64,000 nt of DNA from Fulvivirga marina (GTDB taxonomy: Bacteria; Bacteroidota; Bacteroidia; Cytophagales; Cyclobacteriaceae). The stretch is taken from assembly GCF_016775155.1 (NCBI RefSeq), contig NZ_JAEUGD010000066.1:188763-252762 (forward strand). The letters run 5' to 3'. Each line of letters opens with the position of its first letter. The stretch's first letter is position 1. Made by a program: the position numbers and the translations under genes. The notes beneath the pieces are model-generated. The model searched no databases, was not told where the DNA came from, and saw nothing but the letters and a program-made list of their open reading frames with translations. Of this stretch, positions 8,935 to 43,142 are shown in pieces.

Positions 8935-9411
8935 TTATTCCAGGGCGGCTCTTTTTAGCTCATTAATTGTATCCGCAAGCTTGTCAGAGGCATTTATCAT
9001 CACTTCAAGTTTCTTTTGATACTTGCCTACCTCCTTTTCAGAGTTTTTCAATTGCTCCTGAAGCTCTTTTATTTGATTGCTGTTTTCCCTGAGCAGGATC
9101 AACGACTTTTCAAAAGCCGCTTTAGCATCACTATGGGCAAGTTCCTGAAGTTCGGAAATGCTGCTGCTATATTCGTGGGGCTTCTCCATCCCCTCACCTG
9201 AATAGAATAATTCATCTGTGGTGATACCGAATATTTTCGCCAGAACAGGAATAAGGTCTACCGGTATTTTCCTTCTGCCGTTTTCATAATTAGAAACTAC
9301 ACTGCGCGTAAACAATTGACCCGTGATCTCCTGCATCTGTTCTCCAAGCTCAGTTTGAGATAAATTATTTTTCTTCCTAAAGTGCGAGATTCTTTCGGTA
9401 ATTGTTTTCAA
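8935..9411 (-). CDS. XRE-family transcriptional regulator with coiled-coil tail
   Basis: A 158-residue DNA-binding protein. Residues 5-70 form a Cro/CI-type helix-turn-helix (LSQTELGEQM, then VVSNYENGRRKIPVD), like those of stress and phage-type repressors. Residues 95-155 form a heptad-patterned coiled coil, presumably for dimerisation. An in-frame TAA six codons upstream leaves TTG at 9409-9411 as the start. It is divergent from the small-gene cluster beginning at 9641, and two dyads lie between them, so it probably represses itself and that cluster. Confidence 0.8.
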   Translation of the reverse strand: MKTITERISHFRKKNNLSQTELGEQMQEITGQLFTRSVVSNYENGRRKIPVDLIPVLAKIFGITTDELFYSGEGMEKPHEYSSSISELQELAHSDAKAAFEKSLILLRENSNQIKELQEQLKNSEKEVGKYQKKLEVMINASDKLADTINELKRAALE

Positions 9412-9640: not shown

Positions 9641-9925
9641 ATGCCTACTGTAAAGGATTATCAAACTGTGATACAAAGCATGGAGCTTCTGGCCATGAAG
9701 ATGGAAGTCATAACGCAAGAGCTGTTTGAGGCCAATATCGACTTCATCTGCCAGCTGGCAGAATCTGAGCTAAAGGAGGAGTTAAACGGCAACCTCTCTT
9801 CCTATGGCGCCAGGTTTCAGGGGCTTATAGAAGGGCTGGAAGAAGAAATGAAATTATTAAAAAGGGAAAAGATCAATTATCAGTTTCGTAAAAAACTAAT
9901 GGCTGAGCGTGTCCCGCTCTGGTAA
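9641..9925 (+). CDS. Small helical protein of unknown function (94 aa)
   Basis: I do not recognise a family. The product is predicted alpha-helical and acidic in its middle, with a basic stretch (LLKREK and FRKKLMAER) near the end; no signal peptide or membrane segment. Its central NIDFICQL...ELKEEL resembles NMDFANLI...GLDEL in the 105-aa gene at 10372, so the two may be diverged paralogues. It is the first gene divergent from the XRE regulator and is followed 1 base later by the structured element at 9927-10011. Confidence 0.5.
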   Translation: MPTVKDYQTVIQSMELLAMKMEVITQELFEANIDFICQLAESELKEELNGNLSSYGARFQGLIEGLEEEMKLLKREKINYQFRKKLMAERVPLW

Positions 9926-9926
9926 A

Positions 9927-10011
9927 GGCAGCCCTGTTGATTTGGGTTTAGGTTGACGGGTCAACGGGAGGTGCGCGTAATGGCACCTCCCAAATTGCCT
10001 GAAGGGACTGC
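9927..10011 (+). ncRNA. Structured RNA-like element, copy A
   Basis: A three-tier fold can be drawn. Outer stem: GCAGCCCT (9928-9935) with AGGG-A-CTGC (10003-10011, one bulge). Conserved unpaired core: TTGGGTTTAGGTTGA (9942-9956). Middle stem: CGGG (9957-9960) with CCTG (9998-10001). Apical hairpin: GGGAGGTGC (9966-9974) with GCACCTCCC (9983-9991). Copy B at 10295-10365 has the same architecture with different stem sequences. It lies between two small genes, ending 29 bases before the HTH gene, so it may be a leader, a processed small RNA or a terminator-like spacer. Confidence 0.5.
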
Positions 10012-10040
10012 ATAGGCATTTATATTCTGAGTAGCACAAA

Positions 10041-10286
10041 ATGAAGTCAAGCAAGGTAATCGAAAGAATAGTACAAACCGATCGTCTTCTTCAAAGTGGG
10101 AACATAGGCAACGCTGACGATTTCGCCAAACAACTTGATGTATCCAAACGTACGGTATTTAACCTGCTAAAGATGCTGAAAGATGACTTTGGCGCTCCTG
10201 TAATATTCGACAAAAGGTCAAAAAGCTACAGGTATGCCAGGAAAGGAAGTATAGTGATGGATTTTGTAACAGAGGATAATATTTAA
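10041..10286 (+). CDS. Small HTH_11/DeoR-type DNA-binding protein (81 aa)
   Basis: Residues about 5-65 form a winged helix-turn-helix of the HTH_11 type: ADDFAKQLDVSKRTVFNLLKML is the HTH, and VIFDKRSKSYRYA is a typical beta-wing. There is no effector domain, so it is a stand-alone DNA-binding unit, probably a dimeric repressor or an architectural protein. It sits between the two structured elements in a cluster facing the XRE regulator. Target unknown. Confidence 0.65.
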   Translation: MKSSKVIERIVQTDRLLQSGNIGNADDFAKQLDVSKRTVFNLLKMLKDDFGAPVIFDKRSKSYRYARKGSIVMDFVTEDNI

Positions 10287-10294
10287 AGCAACCC

Positions 10295-10365
10295 GTTTCA
10301 ATTGGGTTTAGGTTGAACGCCACCAACGGGAGGGGCAAGTGCCTCCCGGCGGTGGCTACTGAAAC
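10295..10365 (+). ncRNA. Structured RNA-like element, copy B
   Basis: Second copy of the element at 9927-10011. Outer stem GTTTCA (10295-10300) with TGAAAC (10360-10365); conserved core TTGGGTTTAGGTTGA (10302-10316), identical to copy A; middle stem GCCACC (10319-10324) with GGTGGC (10351-10356); apical hairpin GGGAGG (10328-10333) with CCTCCC (10342-10347) preceded by the shared AAC. The outer and middle stems differ in sequence from copy A yet still pair, which is compensatory change. It ends 6 bases before the next start codon. Confidence 0.5.
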
Positions 10366-10371
10366 ATTTGA

Positions 10372-10689
10372 ATGATGAAAGACAATACTACCTCTTGGGA
10401 GGAATCACAAAACCAGTACCGGCTCTTGCTCGAAGGCATGAACGAACTCATAAAGAACACCACACGGCTGGCAGAAACCTACAAAAGCACCAACATGGAT
10501 TTCGCCAATTTGATCTACGAAAATGGCCTTGACGAGCTAATGCATAAAGCAAACCTGATAAAGGTCTACGAGCACAATTTCGAATTGATGTACTACAGCA
10601 TGAAACGTCATGTAGAACAGTTGAAGCAACTCATGGATGCGCAGAAATTAACTATGATTAAGGATACGGTGAATTATCCGTTGAATTGA
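10372..10689 (+). CDS. Small helical protein of unknown function (105 aa)
   Basis: No family recognised. Predicted almost wholly alpha-helical, with conserved-looking LLEGMNELIKN and NMDFANLIYENGLDEL segments, the latter similar to the 94-aa gene at 9641. No signal peptide or membrane segment. Two adjacent ATG codons (10372, 10375) are possible starts. The start codon is just 6 bases behind the structured element copy B, so its translation could be influenced by that fold. Confidence 0.5.
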   Translation: MMKDNTTSWEESQNQYRLLLEGMNELIKNTTRLAETYKSTNMDFANLIYENGLDELMHKANLIKVYEHNFELMYYSMKRHVEQLKQLMDAQKLTMIKDTVNYPLN

Positions 10690-11028: not shown

Positions 11029-14000
11029 ATGAAAGAGCTCCAGAGTACAAGCAACCGCTTAGTAAAATACATACTGATATTCCTGCTATTCATTGGTGGT
11101 TATAGCGGCCACGCCCAAAATCCCATCACGTGGACCGACCTGGTAGGCGTGGAAGTGCAGGCAGACAATACCCTGCGCAAAACCGGAGGCTGGGGAACAG
11201 ACAATGGGGGCGCTGCATCTGCGGAAGTATTAGCCGCAGACACCGATGGTTGGGCTGAGTTTACCGTCTACCCCACAGGGTACGAGCGCTACTATGGATT
11301 GACCCAAAACAACATCGATGCAACCAAAAACATCGACTATGCTATCAAAATTAATAGCATCAATACCATCGTGATCCAGGAAAGCGGCGTATCCCGCGGA
11401 GGCTACGGAAGCATAGAAGCCGGAGACGTACTAAGAGTAGAACGAACCGATACCACCATAACTTATAAAAAGAATGGAGCCACCTTCTACACCTCACAAA
11501 TAGCGTCAACCACAACACTCAGAGTAGATGTATGCCTTTACCATAACGATGGAGAAATCAGGAACGGCACCCTCAACTTTGGCGCAGCTACAGTAGAAGC
11601 CCCGAACGCCCCTACAGCCCTGCAAAGCACCACGCTAAGCTCAAACAGCGTAAGCCTGCAATGGACAGATAATGCCGAAGACGAAGCCGGCTTTATCATC
11701 GAACGACAAACCGGAGCGGGAGCCTACGAACAAGTCGCTAACCTGGCTCCCAACACCATCAGCTATACCGATACCACCGTAACCAGTGCCCTCAGCTATA
11801 CCTACCGGGTATATGCCTACAACCCAGGAGGCAACTCCTCCTATAGCAATACCCAGACCGTAACCCCCGAGGAAACCACAAGAGCAGGCTTCCCGATTAC
11901 CTGGACCGATAAAATAGGCGTAGAAGTACAGGCAGACAATGCCTTGCTCAAAACCGCAGGTTGGGGCACCGACAATGCCGGAGCCACCTCCGTAGAAATA
12001 CTTCCGGCCGGCACCGATGGCTGGGCAGAACTTACAGCCTATGCCACCGGCTACGAACGCTACTTTGGCCTCACCGAAAACAGCACCGATGCAACCAATA
12101 ACATCGATTATGCCATCAAACTCAGCAGTGGCAACACCATCGTAGTCAGTGAGCAAAGCCAGAACAAACATGGTATAGGAGATATCACAGATGGAGACAT
12201 CCTGCGCATAGAAAGGACAGGAACCACCATAACCTACAAAAAGAATGGAGAAGTTTATTACACCTCAACAACCCCCTCTACCGGCCCCTTGATGGTAGAC
12301 GTTAGCCTTTACCATAGCAACGGACAGATTAAAGGAACAGCCATATCCTTCGAGGCCGTCGTAGCTCCGGAAATTCCCGCCAATGTGCAGGCCATCGCAA
12401 CCGACTTTGATAAAAACCTCATCACCTGGACAGCCCAGGCCCCGACCATAAGCTATGAGATAGAAAGATCACTCAATGAAACCAATGGCTTTGCAAGAGT
12501 AGCCACCACCATCCGGGGAGCTCATGAATACAGCGAAGGCAACCTTACCGGCGCCACCACTTATTATTACCGGGTAAGAGCAACCAACGGACAACAATAC
12601 TCCGGCTATAGCCCCGTGATCAGCTCCACAACCCAAACCTCCATAGCCACCAACAACACCCAAGTCCACAAAGAACAATACAACGGCAACATATCAGCCA
12701 TCAAGTGGAAAACCCATGGAGATACAGAGGAAAAACTGTACACCTACAGCTACGACCCCATGAACCGGATCAAAACCGCCCAATATGCCCAAGGAAAAAC
12801 CCAGGCCAACAAAACCTGGACCACCCAATCAGCACAAGGCGGCTACAGCATACATAACATCAACTACGACCTGAACGGAAACATCCAAAGCCTCAACAGA
12901 CAGTCCATAGCAGAAGACCTGCGCACCATAGATGCCCTGACCTACAACTATGCCAACGGAGGCAACCAGCTGACTGCCGTCAGTGATGCCGCAGGGTGGG
13001 AAGGCTTCACCGATAAAAACACCGCAGGAGATGACTACGATTACGATGCCAATGGCAACATGATCGTAGACAGGAACAAAGGCATCACCATCACCTACAA
13101 CCACCTGAACCTGCCCGTAAGAGTAGAGAAAGACACCAACAACTACATCGTCTACCACTACGACGCTACAGGCGTAAAACAAGAACAGATCGTCTATGAA
13201 GAAGGCAAAGCCCCCAAAAGCACCCGATACTTCGGAGAGCTGATCTATGAAGACGGAGAGCTGACCATGATCCAACATGAAGAAGGGCGAGTAGTGATCG
13301 ATGAAATTACAGGAGACTTCGAATATCAGTACCATTTAAAAGACCATTTGGGAAATACAAGGCTGACCTTCACGACGAAGCCGAAAACGATCGATTTCCC
13401 AGCCCGCTTTGAGACAGAAACAGCAGCAGATGAAGAACAACTATACAGTGGCATAGACAACACCCGGGTAATATTCCCCAGTGCAGATGCCACGCAGGAC
13501 TCTATCCATGTAACAGGAGACGATGAAGTCATAGGACTGAACAACCAGATCTCCGCCGGAGCCGCACTGAGCATCCCCGTAGGCCCCGGCGATAAGCTGG
13601 ACATGCAGGTGTACAGCTACTACGAAGCAGGAGACTATGGCAGTCCACAGTCTGCCAATGCAGTATTGATGGCCGTGGCCGGAGCCTTTGGAGGAGTAAA
13701 TGGTGGCAATACCTATGAGCAGTCTACCTATGATGCTTTTAGCAGTGCGCATGAAAATAGTATGGTGGTAGCAGGTAACAATGCAGGAAGTACTGTTCCC
13801 GCAGCCTACCTGAACTACATCCTGTTCGATGAAAAAATGAACCCTTACAAATTTGGGCATACTCAAATCACGGGAACTGCCAACAGTCATGAGCTAGTGA
13901 CCTTGAATGGTGTTATTGTAGACCAAACAGGCTTTGCCTATATTTACCTGAGCAATGAGAGTGATAGTCCATTGCCGGTGTTCTTTGATGATATGAATGT

Positions 14001-14931
14001 GGTGCTTACGGAGAGTAATGTGGTGCAGAAGGATGATTACTATCCTTTTGGGTTAACCTTTAACTCTTACCAGAGAGTCACGGCCAAGGAGAATAAATGG
14101 AAATTCCAGGGGCAGGAACACATTGATGATCTGGGGCTTAACTGGGACTCTTTCAAATGGAGAAATCACCAACCAGATATAGGAAGGTTCTTTAATGTTG
14201 ATCCGTTGGCAGAAAAGTACGTTTATAACAGTCCGTACGCATTTAGTGAGAACAAGGTAACTTCTCATATTGAATTGGAAGGTTTGGAGGCAGTGTCTCT
14301 TAAGAAAGATATAAATAATCTTGTAATTGTGGTTCAGGGTTACGGGGGAGCAAGTCCAAGTGATGGGAAAACACAAGCACAAAATAGCCCAGAAATAGGC
14401 GGTGGAATTGATTACTCGGGTATCGGAAGTGTAACTTCTTTGGAATCAAAAGACACACAAGTTGCAGTTTTTGCATCTTCGCATAGTAGCAATACAAAAA
14501 ATGATATATCAAAAAGTATATCTAATTTTAACTCTGCGAGTCCTGAAGGAAAAGTAGTATTAGTAGGCCATAGTTTAGGTGGAGATAATTTGGTGGAGAT
14601 GGTTAATGAAAATAGTAATTTGAAGGTTGATGCATTAATAACTCTAGATATTGCTGATTACTTCAGTGACACTGAAATTTCTGAGAATGTCGGAACGGCC
14701 ATTAATTATTATCAGACAAACTTTTTTCCTATGGGTGACAAAGTAACTGCGAAGAATCCAGAAAAAACTAAGACGATAAATATTGAGGCTAAGAATTCAA
14801 CACATCGTAGTATAGATAATAACCTTAAAGGGAGTGTGATAAATAGCGTTATTTATCACACTCAGAGTTCCTCGTCCAGCGATGGTTTTGTTGGTCCTCC
14901 AAAGCCTACAGACATAAAACCACCTTTTTAA
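11029..14931 (+). CDS. RHS/YD-repeat polymorphic toxin with alpha/beta-hydrolase tip
   Basis: A 1300-residue exported protein. Signal peptide at residues 1-30 (cleavage after HAQ). Two tandem copies of a ~160-residue domain starting with ITWTD (about 33-190 and 290-445), each followed by a fibronectin-III-like domain; YD/RHS repeats from about 550; the RHS core at 766 (YHLKDHLGNTR) and near 1052 (GRFFNVDPLAEKY). After about 1085 the sequence changes to a variable tip with a lipase-type GHSLGG (1180-1185, nucleophile Ser1182), LDIAD after a strand, and a late His in NSTHRS: a likely Ser-Asp-His triad. The body is GC-rich at third positions while the tip is AT-rich, as expected of an exchanged toxin domain. 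Substrate (lipid or other ester) is inferred. Confidence 0.85.
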   Translation: MKELQSTSNRLVKYILIFLLFIGGYSGHAQNPITWTDLVGVEVQADNTLRKTGGWGTDNGGAASAEVLAADTDGWAEFTVYPTGYERYYGLTQNNIDATKNIDYAIKINSINTIVIQESGVSRGGYGSIEAGDVLRVERTDTTITYKKNGATFYTSQIASTTTLRVDVCLYHNDGEIRNGTLNFGAATVEAPNAPTALQSTTLSSNSVSLQWTDNAEDEAGFIIERQTGAGAYEQVANLAPNTISYTDTTVTSALSYTYRVYAYNPGGNSSYSNTQTVTPEETTRAGFPITWTDKIGVEVQADNALLKTAGWGTDNAGATSVEILPAGTDGWAELTAYATGYERYFGLTENSTDATNNIDYAIKLSSGNTIVVSEQSQNKHGIGDITDGDILRIERTGTTITYKKNGEVYYTSTTPSTGPLMVDVSLYHSNGQIKGTAISFEAVVAPEIPANVQAIATDFDKNLITWTAQAPTISYEIERSLNETNGFARVATTIRGAHEYSEGNLTGATTYYYRVRATNGQQYSGYSPVISSTTQTSIATNNTQVHKEQYNGNISAIKWKTHGDTEEKLYTYSYDPMNRIKTAQYAQGKTQANKTWTTQSAQGGYSIHNINYDLNGNIQSLNRQSIAEDLRTIDALTYNYANGGNQLTAVSDAAGWEGFTDKNTAGDDYDYDANGNMIVDRNKGITITYNHLNLPVRVEKDTNNYIVYHYDATGVKQEQIVYEEGKAPKSTRYFGELIYEDGELTMIQHEEGRVVIDEITGDFEYQYHLKDHLGNTRLTFTTKPKTIDFPARFETETAADEEQLYSGIDNTRVIFPSADATQDSIHVTGDDEVIGLNNQISAGAALSIPVGPGDKLDMQVYSYYEAGDYGSPQSANAVLMAVAGAFGGVNGGNTYEQSTYDAFSSAHENSMVVAGNNAGSTVPAAYLNYILFDEKMNPYKFGHTQITGTANSHELVTLNGVIVDQTGFAYIYLSNESDSPLPVFFDDMNVVLTESNVVQKDDYYPFGLTFNSYQRVTAKENKWKFQGQEHIDDLGLNWDSFKWRNHQPDIGRFFNVDPLAEKYVYNSPYAFSENKVTSHIELEGLEAVSLKKDINNLVIVVQGYGGASPSDGKTQAQNSPEIGGGIDYSGIGSVTSLESKDTQVAVFASSHSSNTKNDISKSISNFNSASPEGKVVLVGHSLGGDNLVEMVNENSNLKVDALITLDIADYFSDTEISENVGTAINYYQTNFFPMGDKVTAKNPEKTKTINIEAKNSTHRSIDNNLKGSVINSVIYHTQSSSSSDGFVGPPKPTDIKPPF

Positions 14932-22486: not shown

Positions 22487-24754
22487 ATGCTAAAAAAAGC
22501 CTCCCTGTTATCAATTACCTTTGTTGTAATCACATCGTTGATTTTGGGGTATTTCATCAAAGACCTACAATTCAACTATGTATTTGAGAGCTTTTTTCCT
22601 ACTGATGACCCCGACCTGGAGTATTACAGAACATTTGAGGAACTGTTTGAAAATGACAATAATTATCTACTTGTAGGACTTGTTAATGAGCCTACTGTTT
22701 TTGACAGTGCGTTTCTTCACAAAGTAGGACAACTCACTAAATACGTTGAACAAACCGACCATGTAACCAGTGTAGCCTCCATTTCTAATATTGAAAAACC
22801 GATAATCAGCCCGGCAGGTTATTTTGAAATACCTGTAATACACGTAGAGGCTCCCGAAAAATATAAACAGGATAGCATTCGTCTTTACAAAGATGGTTGG
22901 TTATTGGAATCTCTTCTCTCGCGGGATGCGAAAGCCACGGCTATTGTCATAAAGCACGAACCTCTATCAGGAAAAGAGGCTGCAGACTCTTTAGTCAACA
23001 GTATAAGAAAGGCAATTGATCATCTTGATTTTCAGAAATTTCATTTGGCAGGCAAATCATATGCTCAAGGTATCTTCATTGAAAAAATGCAGTACGAATT
23101 GGCTATTTTCTTATCTGCCTCTGTTGCTTTGGTCATTGTATTCCTGGTTATAGCATTCAGGTCATTTTCGGGTGTAATTGTACCATTAATCGTTGTACTC
23201 TTATCCACTATATGGATACTTGGTTTCATGGCTTTAACGGGCAAAACGTTAGATATTCTCATGGTGCTGTTACCCACCATCATGTTCATTGTTGGTATGT
23301 CTGATGTAGTCCATATCATGACTAAATATATAGAACAACTCAGAGTAGGTGATAGTAAAAGAGACGCCATAGTAACAACCATAAAGGAAGTAGGGCTTGC
23401 CACCCTCCTAACCTCTCTTACTACCGCTGTTGGTTTTGCCACATTGCTAACAGCCAGTATCCAACCTATTCAGGAGTTCGGTATCTATACCGCCGCAGGC
23501 GTTTTTTTTGCCTTTATTGTAGCTTTTGCTCTACTACCTGCCTGCCTGTATCTGCTTCCAAGACCAAAAGTTTCTTACAAGGTGGTTCACAAGTCTTCAT
23601 GGTTCCTGTTTTTAAGCCGATCATTTATCAAAGTGGCCAGAAATGGAAAAAGTATTCTGACCATTAACCTAGCACTTATAATCATCTCTTTGGTTGGAAT
23701 ATCCCAAATACGCATCAACACTTACCTTATAGAAGATTTGCCCTCAGATGATCCACTAAAGCTAGACTTTATGTTCTTCGATACAGAATTTGGTGGATCA
23801 AGACCTTTTGAAATAACTGCTACTGTCAACAAAAGTGGTGCTACTGTTTTTGACCGTGAGGTTTTGATCGAAACGGACTCTCTCCAAAACCACCTTACCT
23901 CCTTATTTGGTTCCGGAGGTATCATATCCCCTGTAACTGTAGTGAAGGGCCTTAACCAAGCCATAAACGGAGGGTCTTCAGATGCCTATAGGCTCCCTTC
24001 AAATGACAAGGAATGGAAGCGACTGTACAAATACCTGCCACGGCTACTAAAAAGATATCAGAAATCGGGAAACATAACGGCCATGCAAAATACAGTGGGC
24101 AGGATCAGTACTCGCGTCGGAGACATTGGCAGTGCAATTTCACTAGCAAAGACCAAAGAACTGCAAACATACATCAGACAACATACGGATACAGCTCTTG
24201 TGACCTACAAAGTAACCGGGACATCCAACCTGATTGACAAAAACAATGAGTACCTGGCTAAAAACATGTTTGAAGGTCTTGGCATTGCCTTTTTTGTCGT
24301 CGCTGTCATTGCCGGCCTGCTTTTTAAGTCACTGCGAATGGTCATGATCACTCTTGTGCCCAATGTTATCCCGCTACTCATCATTGCAGGTATTATGGGC
24401 ATCTCAGGCATTACATTAAAGCTTTCAACGTCTATAGTGTTTTCAATCGCTTTCGGTATCGCTGTTGATGACACTATTCACTTCATCAGCAAACTTAAGA
24501 TCGAGCTTGCCAAAGGAAAACCATTGCTCTATGCTTTAAAAAGAACCTACTTATCCACCGGAAAGGCTATTATTGTAACCAGCATTATCCTTTCCGGCGG
24601 ATTCCTCATTTTACTGCTTTCCTCCTTTGGAGGAACATTCTACACAGGCCTTCTTGTAAGCCTGACCCTCATTTTCGCCTTGCTAATTGATCTAACACTG
24701 CTTCCTGTAATGATCATGCTATTTTTCAGGCATAAACAAACTGCTAATGCCTGA
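22487..24754 (+). CDS. MMPL/RND-superfamily transporter
   Basis: A 755-residue inner-membrane protein with the RND-type double layout: one helix, a ~160-residue periplasmic domain, five to six helices (about 205-360), then a second helix, periplasmic domain and helices 7-12 (about 590-750). Conserved SDVVHIMTKY near 270 and VDDTIHFISKL near 660 are the paired proton-relay segments of this family. Relatives export hydrophobic substrates such as lipids or hopanoids. It overlaps the convergent esterase gene by 11 bases, with no terminator between. Confidence 0.87.
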   Translation: MLKKASLLSITFVVITSLILGYFIKDLQFNYVFESFFPTDDPDLEYYRTFEELFENDNNYLLVGLVNEPTVFDSAFLHKVGQLTKYVEQTDHVTSVASISNIEKPIISPAGYFEIPVIHVEAPEKYKQDSIRLYKDGWLLESLLSRDAKATAIVIKHEPLSGKEAADSLVNSIRKAIDHLDFQKFHLAGKSYAQGIFIEKMQYELAIFLSASVALVIVFLVIAFRSFSGVIVPLIVVLLSTIWILGFMALTGKTLDILMVLLPTIMFIVGMSDVVHIMTKYIEQLRVGDSKRDAIVTTIKEVGLATLLTSLTTAVGFATLLTASIQPIQEFGIYTAAGVFFAFIVAFALLPACLYLLPRPKVSYKVVHKSSWFLFLSRSFIKVARNGKSILTINLALIIISLVGISQIRINTYLIEDLPSDDPLKLDFMFFDTEFGGSRPFEITATVNKSGATVFDREVLIETDSLQNHLTSLFGSGGIISPVTVVKGLNQAINGGSSDAYRLPSNDKEWKRLYKYLPRLLKRYQKSGNITAMQNTVGRISTRVGDIGSAISLAKTKELQTYIRQHTDTALVTYKVTGTSNLIDKNNEYLAKNMFEGLGIAFFVVAVIAGLLFKSLRMVMITLVPNVIPLLIIAGIMGISGITLKLSTSIVFSIAFGIAVDDTIHFISKLKIELAKGKPLLYALKRTYLSTGKAIIVTSIILSGGFLILLLSSFGGTFYTGLLVSLTLIFALLIDLTLLPVMIMLFFRHKQTANA

Positions 24755-26681
24755 TCATAATCTTTTCAAAGCAGGGCTTACCGTCAATCATCATGTTGAT
24801 TATATACATGCCTTCGCTCAAGTGACTTACATCTAGCATAAGCAACTCATCCTGCTTTTCAGTAATTAAAGATACTTCTCTCCCCTCAGTCGAGACTATA
24901 CTTACGGATTGCATATTGGCAAATTTACCTCTAATGTAAATTCGGGAAGTAGCTGGGTTGGGGTACAGGTAAATATCTGCCTGCAGCTCTCCCAAGCCTA
25001 CGCTTTTTCCTGATAATCCGAACTGGGATTTTCTAATCTCTATTTTAAATGCAGCGTCAAATACAGTATAGGCGATTCCATTATACCATAAATTCCCACC
25101 AAAGTATGCATTTGAAAAGCTATATTTTAACGACGCATTGGTAAGCTGCACTGTATACTGCTGTCCACTTAACAGCCACGGACCATTTTGCAAAGTAATA
25201 GATTGCCACCCTTTTCCTTTGCTAATTCCTGTCTGCTCGTAAACGATCTGCCCGGTCACCGAATTTCCCTCATAAACACGAAGTGCAGCCCCGGATATAG
25301 CATTAACTAAATTAAAAGAAACTGTTTCAAGGTTGCCATCCGCAGTAGCAACGAAGGACTGTCCCATATCCTGCCCATTATTATAGCTCAATATGCCACT
25401 GCCATTCGGTTGATCTATTACCACCAACTCTCCCTGCCCTCCCTCTGAAAAGGTTATGGCAGAAACTGTATTGCTTACGGCTGTTTCATCCATCGCATTG
25501 ACAGCTGTAACTCTATAGTAGTAGCGTGTTTCCGAAGCAAGCCCTTCATCATTGAACACTGTAGTATTAGCGCTTAAATTAGCTACCTCAGCAAACTGAC
25601 TATCAGAATACAATGACCTTTCAACAACATAGGCTGTTTCCGTTGTAGCGTTATCATTCCAGGTAAGTTTAATCCCTGAAGATGATACAGCTTCTGCCTG
25701 TACATTACCTGGAGCCTCAAACACTTCAGAGCTTGCAACTATGTTAAAAAATGTAGCTGCCAGATAACTGCTGAATATGTTGACATCTTTCGCATAGGTG
25801 CCTGTCTGCCCTCCCTGCTTATCACCTGAGCCCGGATCTACAGCAATAGCATGTCCCATCCCTTCGATACTGTAGGTTATAACAACATCATTTCCACCTT
25901 GATCTTTGTAGGCTTTACGAGTAACCAAAGCATTATTATCATAATTAGTATCTTCCTGATCCACAACCTGATCAGTAACATGCACATTGGTCCATTGCTC
26001 CATTAATTCTCTTTGATTTACAAAATACACTGTGTAATCAGATGTACCATGTATAGTAGCCACCCTGGGATAATTTCCACTAAATGACGGATATGCATTT
26101 CTCACCAGATTACCGAGCTGCTCCGGACTCTTATTTATATTACCAAACATGGCCATGAAAGCTTCATTGCTTCCCGTAGCAACCTTATATGGCAATCCAC
26201 TCATTACAACTCCGGCCGAAAATACATCAGGATAGGCTGCCAGCATAACACTAGTCATTCCCCCTCCCGCTGAAAATCCGGTGACATATACTCTATTATT
26301 ATCGATGGCATAGTTAGCCTTCACAAAATCTACCATTGATTTGAGGGATAACGCCTCGCCAGAACCTCGGCTGTAATCTCCACTTTCAAACCAGTTAAAG
26401 CACCTCGAAGAGTTATTGCTATTCTTTTGCTCCGCATAGATTACATAAAAGCCGTAACGGTCAGCCAGTTCGTTCCAACCACTTTCCCCTGCAAACTCAG
26501 AAGCACTTTGCGTACAACCATGCAACGCCAGAACCAGTGGAGCACCTGCAACAGGTAATTCAGGTTCATATATATACATACCAAGGTTGCCTGGATTAGA
26601 GCCAAAATTAGTAACTGGCACCTGAGAAAAAGCTTTATGAACAAAGCATAAGATAATAGGTAAAAGGAATAATTTTTTCAT
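24744..26681 (-). CDS. Secreted PHB-depolymerase-type esterase with T9SS sorting domain
   Basis: A 645-residue exported esterase. Signal peptide 1-20; catalytic domain 30-315 of the LpqC/PHB-depolymerase family with oxyanion-hole HGCTQ (54-58) and lipase box GFSAGG (135-140, Ser137), and a late His in GMGHAIAVDP. Next come a fibronectin-III domain (about 330-412), a beta-sandwich module (about 420-555) and a ~75-residue C-terminal sorting domain (YLYPNPATSRIYIRG, ending VSHLSEGMYIINM) marking it for the type IX secretion system. Likely substrates are polyesters or feruloyl/acetyl esters of polysaccharides. Confidence 0.87.
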   Translation of the reverse strand: MKKLFLLPIILCFVHKAFSQVPVTNFGSNPGNLGMYIYEPELPVAGAPLVLALHGCTQSASEFAGESGWNELADRYGFYVIYAEQKNSNNSSRCFNWFESGDYSRGSGEALSLKSMVDFVKANYAIDNNRVYVTGFSAGGGMTSVMLAAYPDVFSAGVVMSGLPYKVATGSNEAFMAMFGNINKSPEQLGNLVRNAYPSFSGNYPRVATIHGTSDYTVYFVNQRELMEQWTNVHVTDQVVDQEDTNYDNNALVTRKAYKDQGGNDVVITYSIEGMGHAIAVDPGSGDKQGGQTGTYAKDVNIFSSYLAATFFNIVASSEVFEAPGNVQAEAVSSSGIKLTWNDNATTETAYVVERSLYSDSQFAEVANLSANTTVFNDEGLASETRYYYRVTAVNAMDETAVSNTVSAITFSEGGQGELVVIDQPNGSGILSYNNGQDMGQSFVATADGNLETVSFNLVNAISGAALRVYEGNSVTGQIVYEQTGISKGKGWQSITLQNGPWLLSGQQYTVQLTNASLKYSFSNAYFGGNLWYNGIAYTVFDAAFKIEIRKSQFGLSGKSVGLGELQADIYLYPNPATSRIYIRGKFANMQSVSIVSTEGREVSLITEKQDELLMLDVSHLSEGMYIINMMIDGKPCFEKIMIRH

Positions 26682-26872
26682 AAGATTAAGGGTTTAGGTT
26701 GGAATGAATATCTTAATCTCTATGACATAAATACCAGCATATTATTAATATCAATGGGATGACTTAAGAAGATATATTCTAAAATAAATGAATAAGAATC
26801 TGCTTATCAAACAGATAAAATCCACAAAAAACTCAATGACTTAAACTTATAATCGGTCAACTAATTGTGATA

Positions 26873-41906: not shown

Positions 41907-42338
41907 TGATCTCTAATTGGTCCTTAACACTTCTCAAGCTTAGCAACATTTAAAAAGTAAGTAACCTCACCACCCACGACCTTCAATTATTGGTCTGGGT
42001 GGTGGGTAAGTTTGAAACACTCCAAATATGTGTCCTAATTTTCAGCAACTTGCCTTTAGAGTACGTATAACATAGCACATCTAAATTAGGAACTACAGCC
42101 AGCATCAGCATTCCCTTTCTCTCACAGTTACTTGACAGTGTTTATAAAAATTGATAGCTTCAATTTTCACATCTTTCTAAGCAAACTAACTCCATCAGAC
42201 TTCCGTACGTCTCTCAACAAACCTAAATCCTCACTTTCCTCTTGCATGTAATATCCTCCCTTATTTTTAAAAGCATTATAAATCAATGCTTTGTATATTA
42301 AGTTTGAAAATCATTTTCCATCCTAAACCACTTTTATT
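41907..42338. other. Intergenic region with strong hairpin
   Basis: A long stem lies at 41968-42004: CACCACCCA-C-GACC, ten-base loop, GGTC-TGGGTGGTG, thirteen pairs with a single bulged C. There is no T-run, so it is not a standard terminator; it may stabilise the 3' end of the hydrolase mRNA. TCCTAATTT (about 42031) and AAATTAGGA (about 42083) form a second, widely spaced pair. No gene seen. Confidence 0.45.
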
Positions 42339-43142
42339 ATGACTAACCCAAAATTGCTGGCCATCGGCATGGCCATATGTCTATTGGTTTCCTGTAGCGA
42401 ACAGGAAAATGTCGCACCCGAAAAAGAGGCTATTTCTCCTGAATCCATTGCTAAGCTGAACGCTCTGGGCTTTAAAACTGACAATGCATTCAAATACAAT
42501 GGTTCTCTTGTTGTTGAAGGTGATATTGTACTTAACGAAGCCGACCTAAATCATATGAAGCCGTCTAACATCGTTGCTATTGAGGAACAGTATCATACTG
42601 ACAACTTAGTATCCTCACTGCCACGCACTATTGACGTATATGTGAGTACCAGCTTTTCATCGAAGTACTTTACTGCTGTAGATGCGGCAATAACAAGGTA
42701 CAATAGTGAAAACTTAAATCTCACTTTTCAACGAGTAACGAGCTCCAGTGGTGCTGATATAGCTATCAACCCCTCTCCCTGGTGGTACTATTGGTTTGGA
42801 ATTCTGGGATCTGCAGGATTTCCAACAGCAGGTGGAGACCCGCATAATGAGATTCTACTTACTACGCAGTACTATGACGGAGTAAGTGATATTGGTGCCC
42901 TAACTACCACTATTGCTCACGAAATGGGCCACTGCATCGGCTTCCGCCACACAGACTATATGGACAGAAGCTATAGCTGCGGTGGAAGTGCTGACGATGA
43001 AGGAGATGGTGGTGTTGGCGCGAACCACATTCCGGGAACACCTACCAACCCGGATGCTGCTTCCTGGATGCTTGCCTGCTCTGATGGCAGTGACAGGCCT
43101 TTCAACACCAATGACAAAACAGCTCTTGATTACCTTTATTAA
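42339..43142 (+). CDS. M57-type metzincin metalloprotease lipoprotein
   Basis: A 267-residue lipoprotein: signal with lipobox LVSC (Cys19), a pro-region to about 95, then a zinc-protease domain with the full metzincin motif HEMGHCIGFRH (194-204; three His ligands and Glu195). Asp and Cys-rich C-terminus (RSYSCGG, WMLACSDGSD) may form a disulfide. Belongs to the dual-action HEIGH/M57 group of Bacteroidota extracellular proteases. Single gene followed by a good terminator. Confidence 0.87.
   Translation: MTNPKLLAIGMAICLLVSCSEQENVAPEKEAISPESIAKLNALGFKTDNAFKYNGSLVVEGDIVLNEADLNHMKPSNIVAIEEQYHTDNLVSSLPRTIDVYVSTSFSSKYFTAVDAAITRYNSENLNLTFQRVTSSSGADIAINPSPWWYYWFGILGSAGFPTAGGDPHNEILLTTQYYDGVSDIGALTTTIAHEMGHCIGFRHTDYMDRSYSCGGSADDEGDGGVGANHIPGTPTNPDAASWMLACSDGSDRPFNTNDKTALDYLY

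Follow-up and report, generated by a model that had tools for sequence, protein, structure and literature searches.

The Qrr RNAs of Vibrio are a group of sibling sRNAs that have sigma54 promoters, share a pairing region and operate in the setting of LuxO and quorum sensing. In Bacteroides thetaiotaomicron, the multicopy FopS sRNAs carry a terminator and, at the 5' end, a conserved seed; they bind near the start codons of surface-protein mRNAs and block translation (PMC11697453). According to the accessible part of that report, FopS comprises 14 paralogues of one scaffold with sigma-ABfr promoters and SusC targets and is associated with RbpB (PMC11697453). For Flavobacterium psychrophilum, the accessible part of a second report describes the sRNA Rfp18, for which pairing with several metalloprotease mRNAs was predicted and whose deletion lowered two of these mRNAs (PMC9723704).

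Here, a stretch of 64,000 nt from Fulvivirga marina was analyzed (GCF_016775155.1, NZ_JAEUGD010000066.1, positions 188,763–252,762, forward strand; termed the window). Two RNA elements of the window are probably part of a Fulvivirga multi-scaffold RNA set, which shares the seed GGUUUAGGUUGA and is predicted to pair with AACCUAAACC leaders. As judged from the sequence, the set resembles FopS in having multiple copies with a conserved seed. Unlike FopS as described in the accessible text, the set places one seed on several mutually unrelated scaffolds, includes a sigma54-type sub-family and has mainly secreted hydrolases as candidate targets. The earlier note had recognized no Rfam-type family for these elements, and no Rfam match was obtained in the window at gathering score, and none between 9900 and 10400 at E-values up to 1. 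The sibling RNAs with a common pairing region and putative sigma54-type promoters (16 of the 34 elements of cluster CL0; the window copies are without) are reminiscent of Qrr. Where Qrr has a LuxO/quorum sensing setting, the neighbors in the Fulvivirga array loci scanned were rpoN and an RtcB/Band_7 operon. The set may work like FopS or Qrr, which would be a likeness in working rather than a sign of membership. With Rfp18, compared by its description only, the set would share metalloprotease targets of a Bacteroidota sRNA; in the accessible part of that report, however, Rfp18 is one sRNA that pairs via its third stem-loop, and its deletion lowered, not raised, the target mRNAs (PMC9723704). 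In a literature search mostly confined to journals open without subscription, no description of this RNA family or motif was found.

The Two Window Elements Belong to a Repeated XRE/Small-Protein Module

On the forward strand, the module consists of a gene for a 94-aa protein (9641–9925), element copy 1 (9930–10013, the extent of the covariance-model match), a gene for an 81-aa HTH protein (10041–10286; HTH_11, E 9e-4, below the curated cut-off), element copy 2 (10290–10370) and a gene for a 105-aa protein (10372–10689), in this order. Upstream and divergent, on the reverse strand, lies the gene of the XRE-type regulator of the module (8935–9411; HTH_3, E 1.8e-9). The earlier note had described two copies with an identical core and hairpin, each closely following a small gene and ending before the next, and the sequence confirmed this description. 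The 15-base core TTGGGTTTAGGTTGA is identical at 9942–9956 and 10302–10316, and the AACGGGAGG...CCTCCC hairpin is present in both copies. The proposed 12-nt seed GGTTTAGGTTGA (9945–9956 and 10305–10316, forward strand) begins 19–20 nt 3' of the preceding small ORF, and both elements stop before the next ORF. The helices of copy 1 (9957–10001) are an outer one, CGGG (9957–9960) with CCTG (9998–10001), and an enclosed inner one, GGGAGGTGC (9966–9974) with GCACCTCCC (9983–9991). In copy 2 (10319–10356), GCCACC (10319–10324) and GGTGGC (10351–10356) form the outer helix, which encloses CGGGAGG (10327–10333) and CCTCCCG (10342–10348). These outer helices, originally taken for middle stems, recur in relatives, while the outermost stems proposed beyond them (GCAGCCCT/AGGGACTGC and GTTTCA/TGAAAC) do not, as read by eye from sequences and folds. 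Neither window hairpin is followed by a T-run, so the combination of GC hairpin and U-tract typical of an intrinsic terminator is missing; three relatives in other species (L152, L094, L166) have a T-rich tail. Neither window copy showed an identifiable promoter of its own.

When the window proteins were compared with 26 loci by tblastn, 105-aa-like and XRE-like genes were found together at 10 further places of the own genome (L008, L011, L012, L013, L016, L020, L022, L037, L038, L069), and such pairs also occurred in sister species. The 94-aa protein yielded nine own-genome matches, itself included; no relative was confirmed when genome contigs were scanned with its family. The 94- and 105-aa proteins gave no match in NCBIfam or PHROGs and a single weak one in PADLOC (105-aa protein to ZorA, E 0.008). 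No match of the module DNA was found in the phage collection and none of the 105-aa protein in the plasmid collection. In several sister modules the second element retains the hairpin and carries GTGTTTGAGTT or a near variant instead of the 12-mer (L022:1095–1175, L069:1327–1408, L099:1823–1902, L112:1111–1190, L007:1343–1425); GTGTTTGAGTT is perhaps a second seed. Directly 3' of the module, positions 11029–14931 encode a protein of 1300 aa that has fibronectin-type repeats as well as an RHS core, and for which tblastn gave no match in the 26 sister loci, most of them only 3 kb long. Integron attC-like sites were considered in view of the hairpins between small genes, and dropped when the 12-mer was also found in terminators, leaders and stand-alone units.

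Fold and Covariation

Compared with shuffled sequences, the two copies folded with z-scores of -3.15 and -2.81, and the reverse strands behaved similarly (-3.08 and -3.12). A covariance model was built from 14 copy-2-type relatives, including copy 2 (E 1.7e-18) and excluding copy 1. It recovered copy 1 (E 4.6e-6) plus other module elements. Further copies do lie beside homologous small genes. With 26 elements aligned to the model, and the near-duplicates L004 and L012 omitted from the covariation count, all 16 of 16 pairs had changed on both sides at least once. In this alignment, which is fitted to the model, 86.9% of the paired cells were able to pair, versus 68.8% after shuffling and 44–61% after sliding; the outer helix was weaker than the inner one (73.8% versus 94.2%). 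With RNAalifold and model-independent alignments, the copy-2 set (14 sequences) gave the inner helix alone, with two-sided changes in 9 of 10 pairs and no support for the outer helix, and the copy-1 set (12 sequences) showed two-sided changes in 2 of 15 pairs. A selected, covarying fold is supported overall; the non-fitted alignments uphold only part of it. Both helices were seen in single-sequence folds of most members. In the minimum-energy fold of copy 2, the first Gs of the 12-mer pair with an upstream ACCC.

The 12-mer Is Common to Putative RNAs on Unrelated Scaffolds

Beyond the earlier note, the invariant core turned out to be a 12-nt sequence common to putative RNAs on unrelated scaffolds. 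In the own genome GGTTTAGGTTGA occurred 26 times versus 2 for the reversed control. The count was extended to 117 genomes, 15 of them of the genus Fulvivirga, where 135 sites were found versus 30 control matches. The 12-mer was clearly above control in 9 of the 15 (G000, G001, G002, G004, G005, G006, G007, G013, G014) and weakly in G009 and G012; no excess was seen in G008 and G011, and G003 and G010 had zero sites. The 56 other genomes of the family contained 54 sites versus 118 control matches. We read 129 of the 135 exact sites of the genus (the others were merged as duplicates or not retrieved) and 72 of 73 variant sites. DNA-uptake-like repeats were rejected; the copies are too few, and their orientation tracks neighboring features.

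Of the 129 sites read, 103 were non-target sites, which formed 9 similarity clusters (88 sites) and 15 singles. Judged by the reversed control, some 12-mer sites are chance, and some of the 15 singles must be. Terminator-like hairpins were present on the sense side of 55 of the 103 sites versus 9 on the other side. The largest cluster, CL0 (34 sites), holds stand-alone sRNA-like units and leuB-like leaders; CL1 (22) and CL7 (3) comprise hairpins that belong to the module and to related small genes; CL2, from 8 species, lies 21–43 nt after clpB; CL4 and CL5 lie mostly 3' of secreted-protein-like genes; CL8 represents leaders of LpxH-like genes; CL3 and CL6 are further clusters of non-target sites. 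The names clpB, leuB-like and LpxH-like were assigned from ORF starts. The scaffold types are sigma54-type arrays near rpoN, clpB 3'UTR terminators, gene leaders and the intercistronic hairpins of the repeated XRE/small-protein module, to which the window copies belong. Several scaffolds carrying the 12-mer are conserved between species. The clpB 3'UTR element was absent in six genus genomes beyond the eight of CL2. Among clpB 3'UTRs of 12 genomes outside the genus there was one near-match, GGTTTAGGTTGT with a terminator (G019), and the 11-mer was not enriched in G019 or in five other genomes. When 10 sister loci were compared with Rfam, tRNAs were the sole matches to reach the gathering score, and L101 had three sub-threshold matches to other families. 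In leaders of leuB-like (L153, L162, L181, L110) and LpxH-like genes (L136, L155), the 12-mer was observed within a hairpin loop.

Complementary Sites Precede Start Codons of Secreted-Enzyme Genes

Also beyond the earlier note, the complement of the 12-mer, TCAACCTAAACC, precedes the start codons of secreted-enzyme genes. At 26 of the 129 sites, an ORF of at least 50 aa with an ATG start began no more than 16 nt after it, versus 3 of 129 in the sense-strand control, and for 23 of the 26 the spacing was 7–10 nt. An earlier target set, also of 26, differs slightly from this fixed-rule set, as it was edited by hand: two weak candidates were moved out and one at 24 nt was kept. Pfam was run on 20 of 29 target candidates. 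Thirteen of the 20 matched hydrolase or lyase families (M4, five M57, two astacins, two S8, GH9 with its leader site at 24 nt, rhamnogalacturonan lyase and amidohydrolase), 4 matched other families and 3 none. Nine genes behind near-match sites comprised M57 (2), S8 (2), GH43, TPR (2) and two without match. Signal-peptide-like starts were counted for 49 of 60 targets versus 54 of 141 background ORFs, using a home-made test on orthologues that are not independent. Overall, most target genes code for lipoproteins or for secreted peptidases and other hydrolases.

The window itself contains two target-type leaders. On the reverse strand, CCAACCTAAACC (26691–26702; 11 of 12 positions) lies 9 nt before the ATG of a secreted esterase gene (24744–26681; Esterase_PHB, E 1.7e-29, plus a sorting domain). 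The forward strand has the weaker CCATCCTAAACC (42318–42329; 10 of 12), again 9 nt ahead of an ATG, that of a lipoprotein-like M57 peptidase gene (42339–43142); genes closely similar to this peptidase gene in G001 and G014 carry CCAACCTAAACC. Across the 15 genus genomes, a 10-mer-plus-ATG pattern was found 98 times versus 62 in the control, a mild excess; it amounted to 54 versus 19 in seven seed-rich genomes and 6 versus 18 in G003, G008 and G010. Other genera with few observed seed RNAs also have related leaders. A search with GGTTTAGGTTNA for a compensatory seed change in five other-genus genomes gave 20/5, 14/3, 11/3, 9/5 and 4/6 matches versus control; most of these matches had a leader-type or other context, seed-type sites were isolated (L365, L377), and no clean co-variation of seed and target became visible in these five genomes. 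AACCTA repeats were noted in Chryseotalea and related MAGs, both directly ahead of the ATG of SusC-like genes and at other places (L402, L403, L407, L390).

Proposed Network and Alternative Explanations

The position of the 12-mer complement just before secreted-enzyme start codons suggests an RNA network controlling secretion. The data comprise the fold, the enrichment of the 12-mer, the complementary start-codon sites, the bias toward secreted enzymes and a sigma54-type sub-family near rpoN. They are best read as an sRNA family of the genus that is spread over several scaffolds, pairs with translation-initiation regions and probably acts to repress the secretome; we infer that the 12-mer RNAs are made and pair in trans. 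The seed GGUUUAGGUUGA would base-pair with AACCUAAACC leaders, which mostly lie 7–10 nt upstream of the start codon in genes for secreted hydrolases and lipoproteins. More speculatively, this pairing could block ribosome loading and thereby repress the secretome, different scaffolds could link separate inputs (sigma54, clpB transcription, the XRE-flanked module) to one regulon, and the window copies might be released from the module transcript or compete for the same sites. Among the roles suggested in the earlier note, the processed sRNA comes closest; a cis role of the module copies may apply, and the co-factor of the small proteins lost ground, since most other 12-mer scaffolds in the loci read have other neighbors. 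A broader idea, which we hold tentatively and at somewhat less than even chance, is that one 12-nt "address" was adopted by many unrelated transcripts (sigma54-type arrays, chaperone and other 3'UTRs, biosynthetic leaders, the XRE/small-protein module), creating a network of competing RNAs that jointly set the translation of secreted enzymes. If true, the little-studied Cytophagales would possess a base-pairing regulon with a directly readable seed–target code, one seed would recur on unrelated RNA scaffolds, beyond the duplication of one sRNA, and testable predictions for secreted proteases and glycosidases would follow.

Rather unlikely, though the strongest competitor, is an older cis element: the leader motif AACCTAAACC would enhance translation or be bound by a protein, with the 12-mer RNAs serving as its decoys or sponges, or responding to some other RNA not seen here, instead of being repressors. 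The related leaders of other genera, some of them AACCTA repeats before SusC-like genes, and a seed more constrained than its targets are in line with this explanation, but the seven seed-rich genomes show the 10-mer-plus-ATG pattern above control, whereas G003, G008 and G010 do not. A short fixed word near many genes could also be the DNA operator of a transcription factor, and asymmetric operators exist. We consider this improbable, as seed-type sites lie 3' of genes or in sense-side hairpins while the start-codon sites are on the opposite strand, and one set has a fixed base at position 11, where the other is degenerate. In seven genomes, position 11 of the seed was G in 86 of 124 non-target sites and in 47 of 51 of those with a terminator-like hairpin; the opposite target base was C in 17, U in 18, A in 14 and G in 2 cases. 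The 14 leaders with A lose one pair (predicted duplex -13.6 versus -17.0 kcal/mol), so that a match at this base is no strict requirement. Looser, U-tolerant targets around a conserved hub are expected of sRNA and mRNA and speak against one DNA operator; the asymmetry thus favors putative RNA pairing. Predicted accessibility gave no support for the seed reading: the 12-mer was no better than background, with unpaired probabilities of 0.35–0.59 versus 0.40–0.43 for the rest of the same RNAs, and 0.35 versus 0.41 for the window type.

Similarly low is the probability we assign to elements acting only in cis in their own operon, by stability, processing or attenuation, with the shared 12-mer serving something local. 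The elements are indeed intercistronic in a repeated module, and some sister elements retain the hairpin yet carry GTGTTTGAGTT in the 12-mer position; the same 12-mer, however, sits on scaffolds outside the module, e.g., clpB 3'UTRs and arrays. That the similarity is due to chance or repeats is strongly disfavored and very improbable. The module is multi-copy, its RNA copies being partly duplicates, and the reversed control reached 30 versus 135 in the genus, but the own genome showed 26 versus 2, and several unrelated scaffolds are conserved between species.

The Sigma54-Type Sub-family

In 16 of the 34 CL0 elements, from four species, TGGCA was found exactly 28 nt upstream of the 12-mer, followed in 15 of these 16 by TTG after six nt. 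Outside these 16, TGGCA between -40 and -15 was seen at one other of the 129 sites. TGGCA/TTG would fit a sigma54 promoter, and the spacing of 28 nt is as expected if the 5' end of the RNA is at the seed. The sub-family combines a seed at the expected 5' end with a terminator. No sigma54-type copy was present in the own genome, and the window copies also lack this putative promoter. All 15 of 15 genus genomes possess rpoN, which in three species lies approximately 2–12 kb from the arrays. The scanned array neighborhoods (L100, L101, L108) contained rpoN, rtcB, Band_7, redox and transport genes; sigma54-type arrays are close to rpoN in L100, L101 and L102, and in L101 the RtcB/Band_7 operon is on the opposite flank. 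In several array sRNAs of CL0 (L100, L101, L102), a second recurring word, AGTTGGTTT, was observed between the hairpin arms 3' of the seed.
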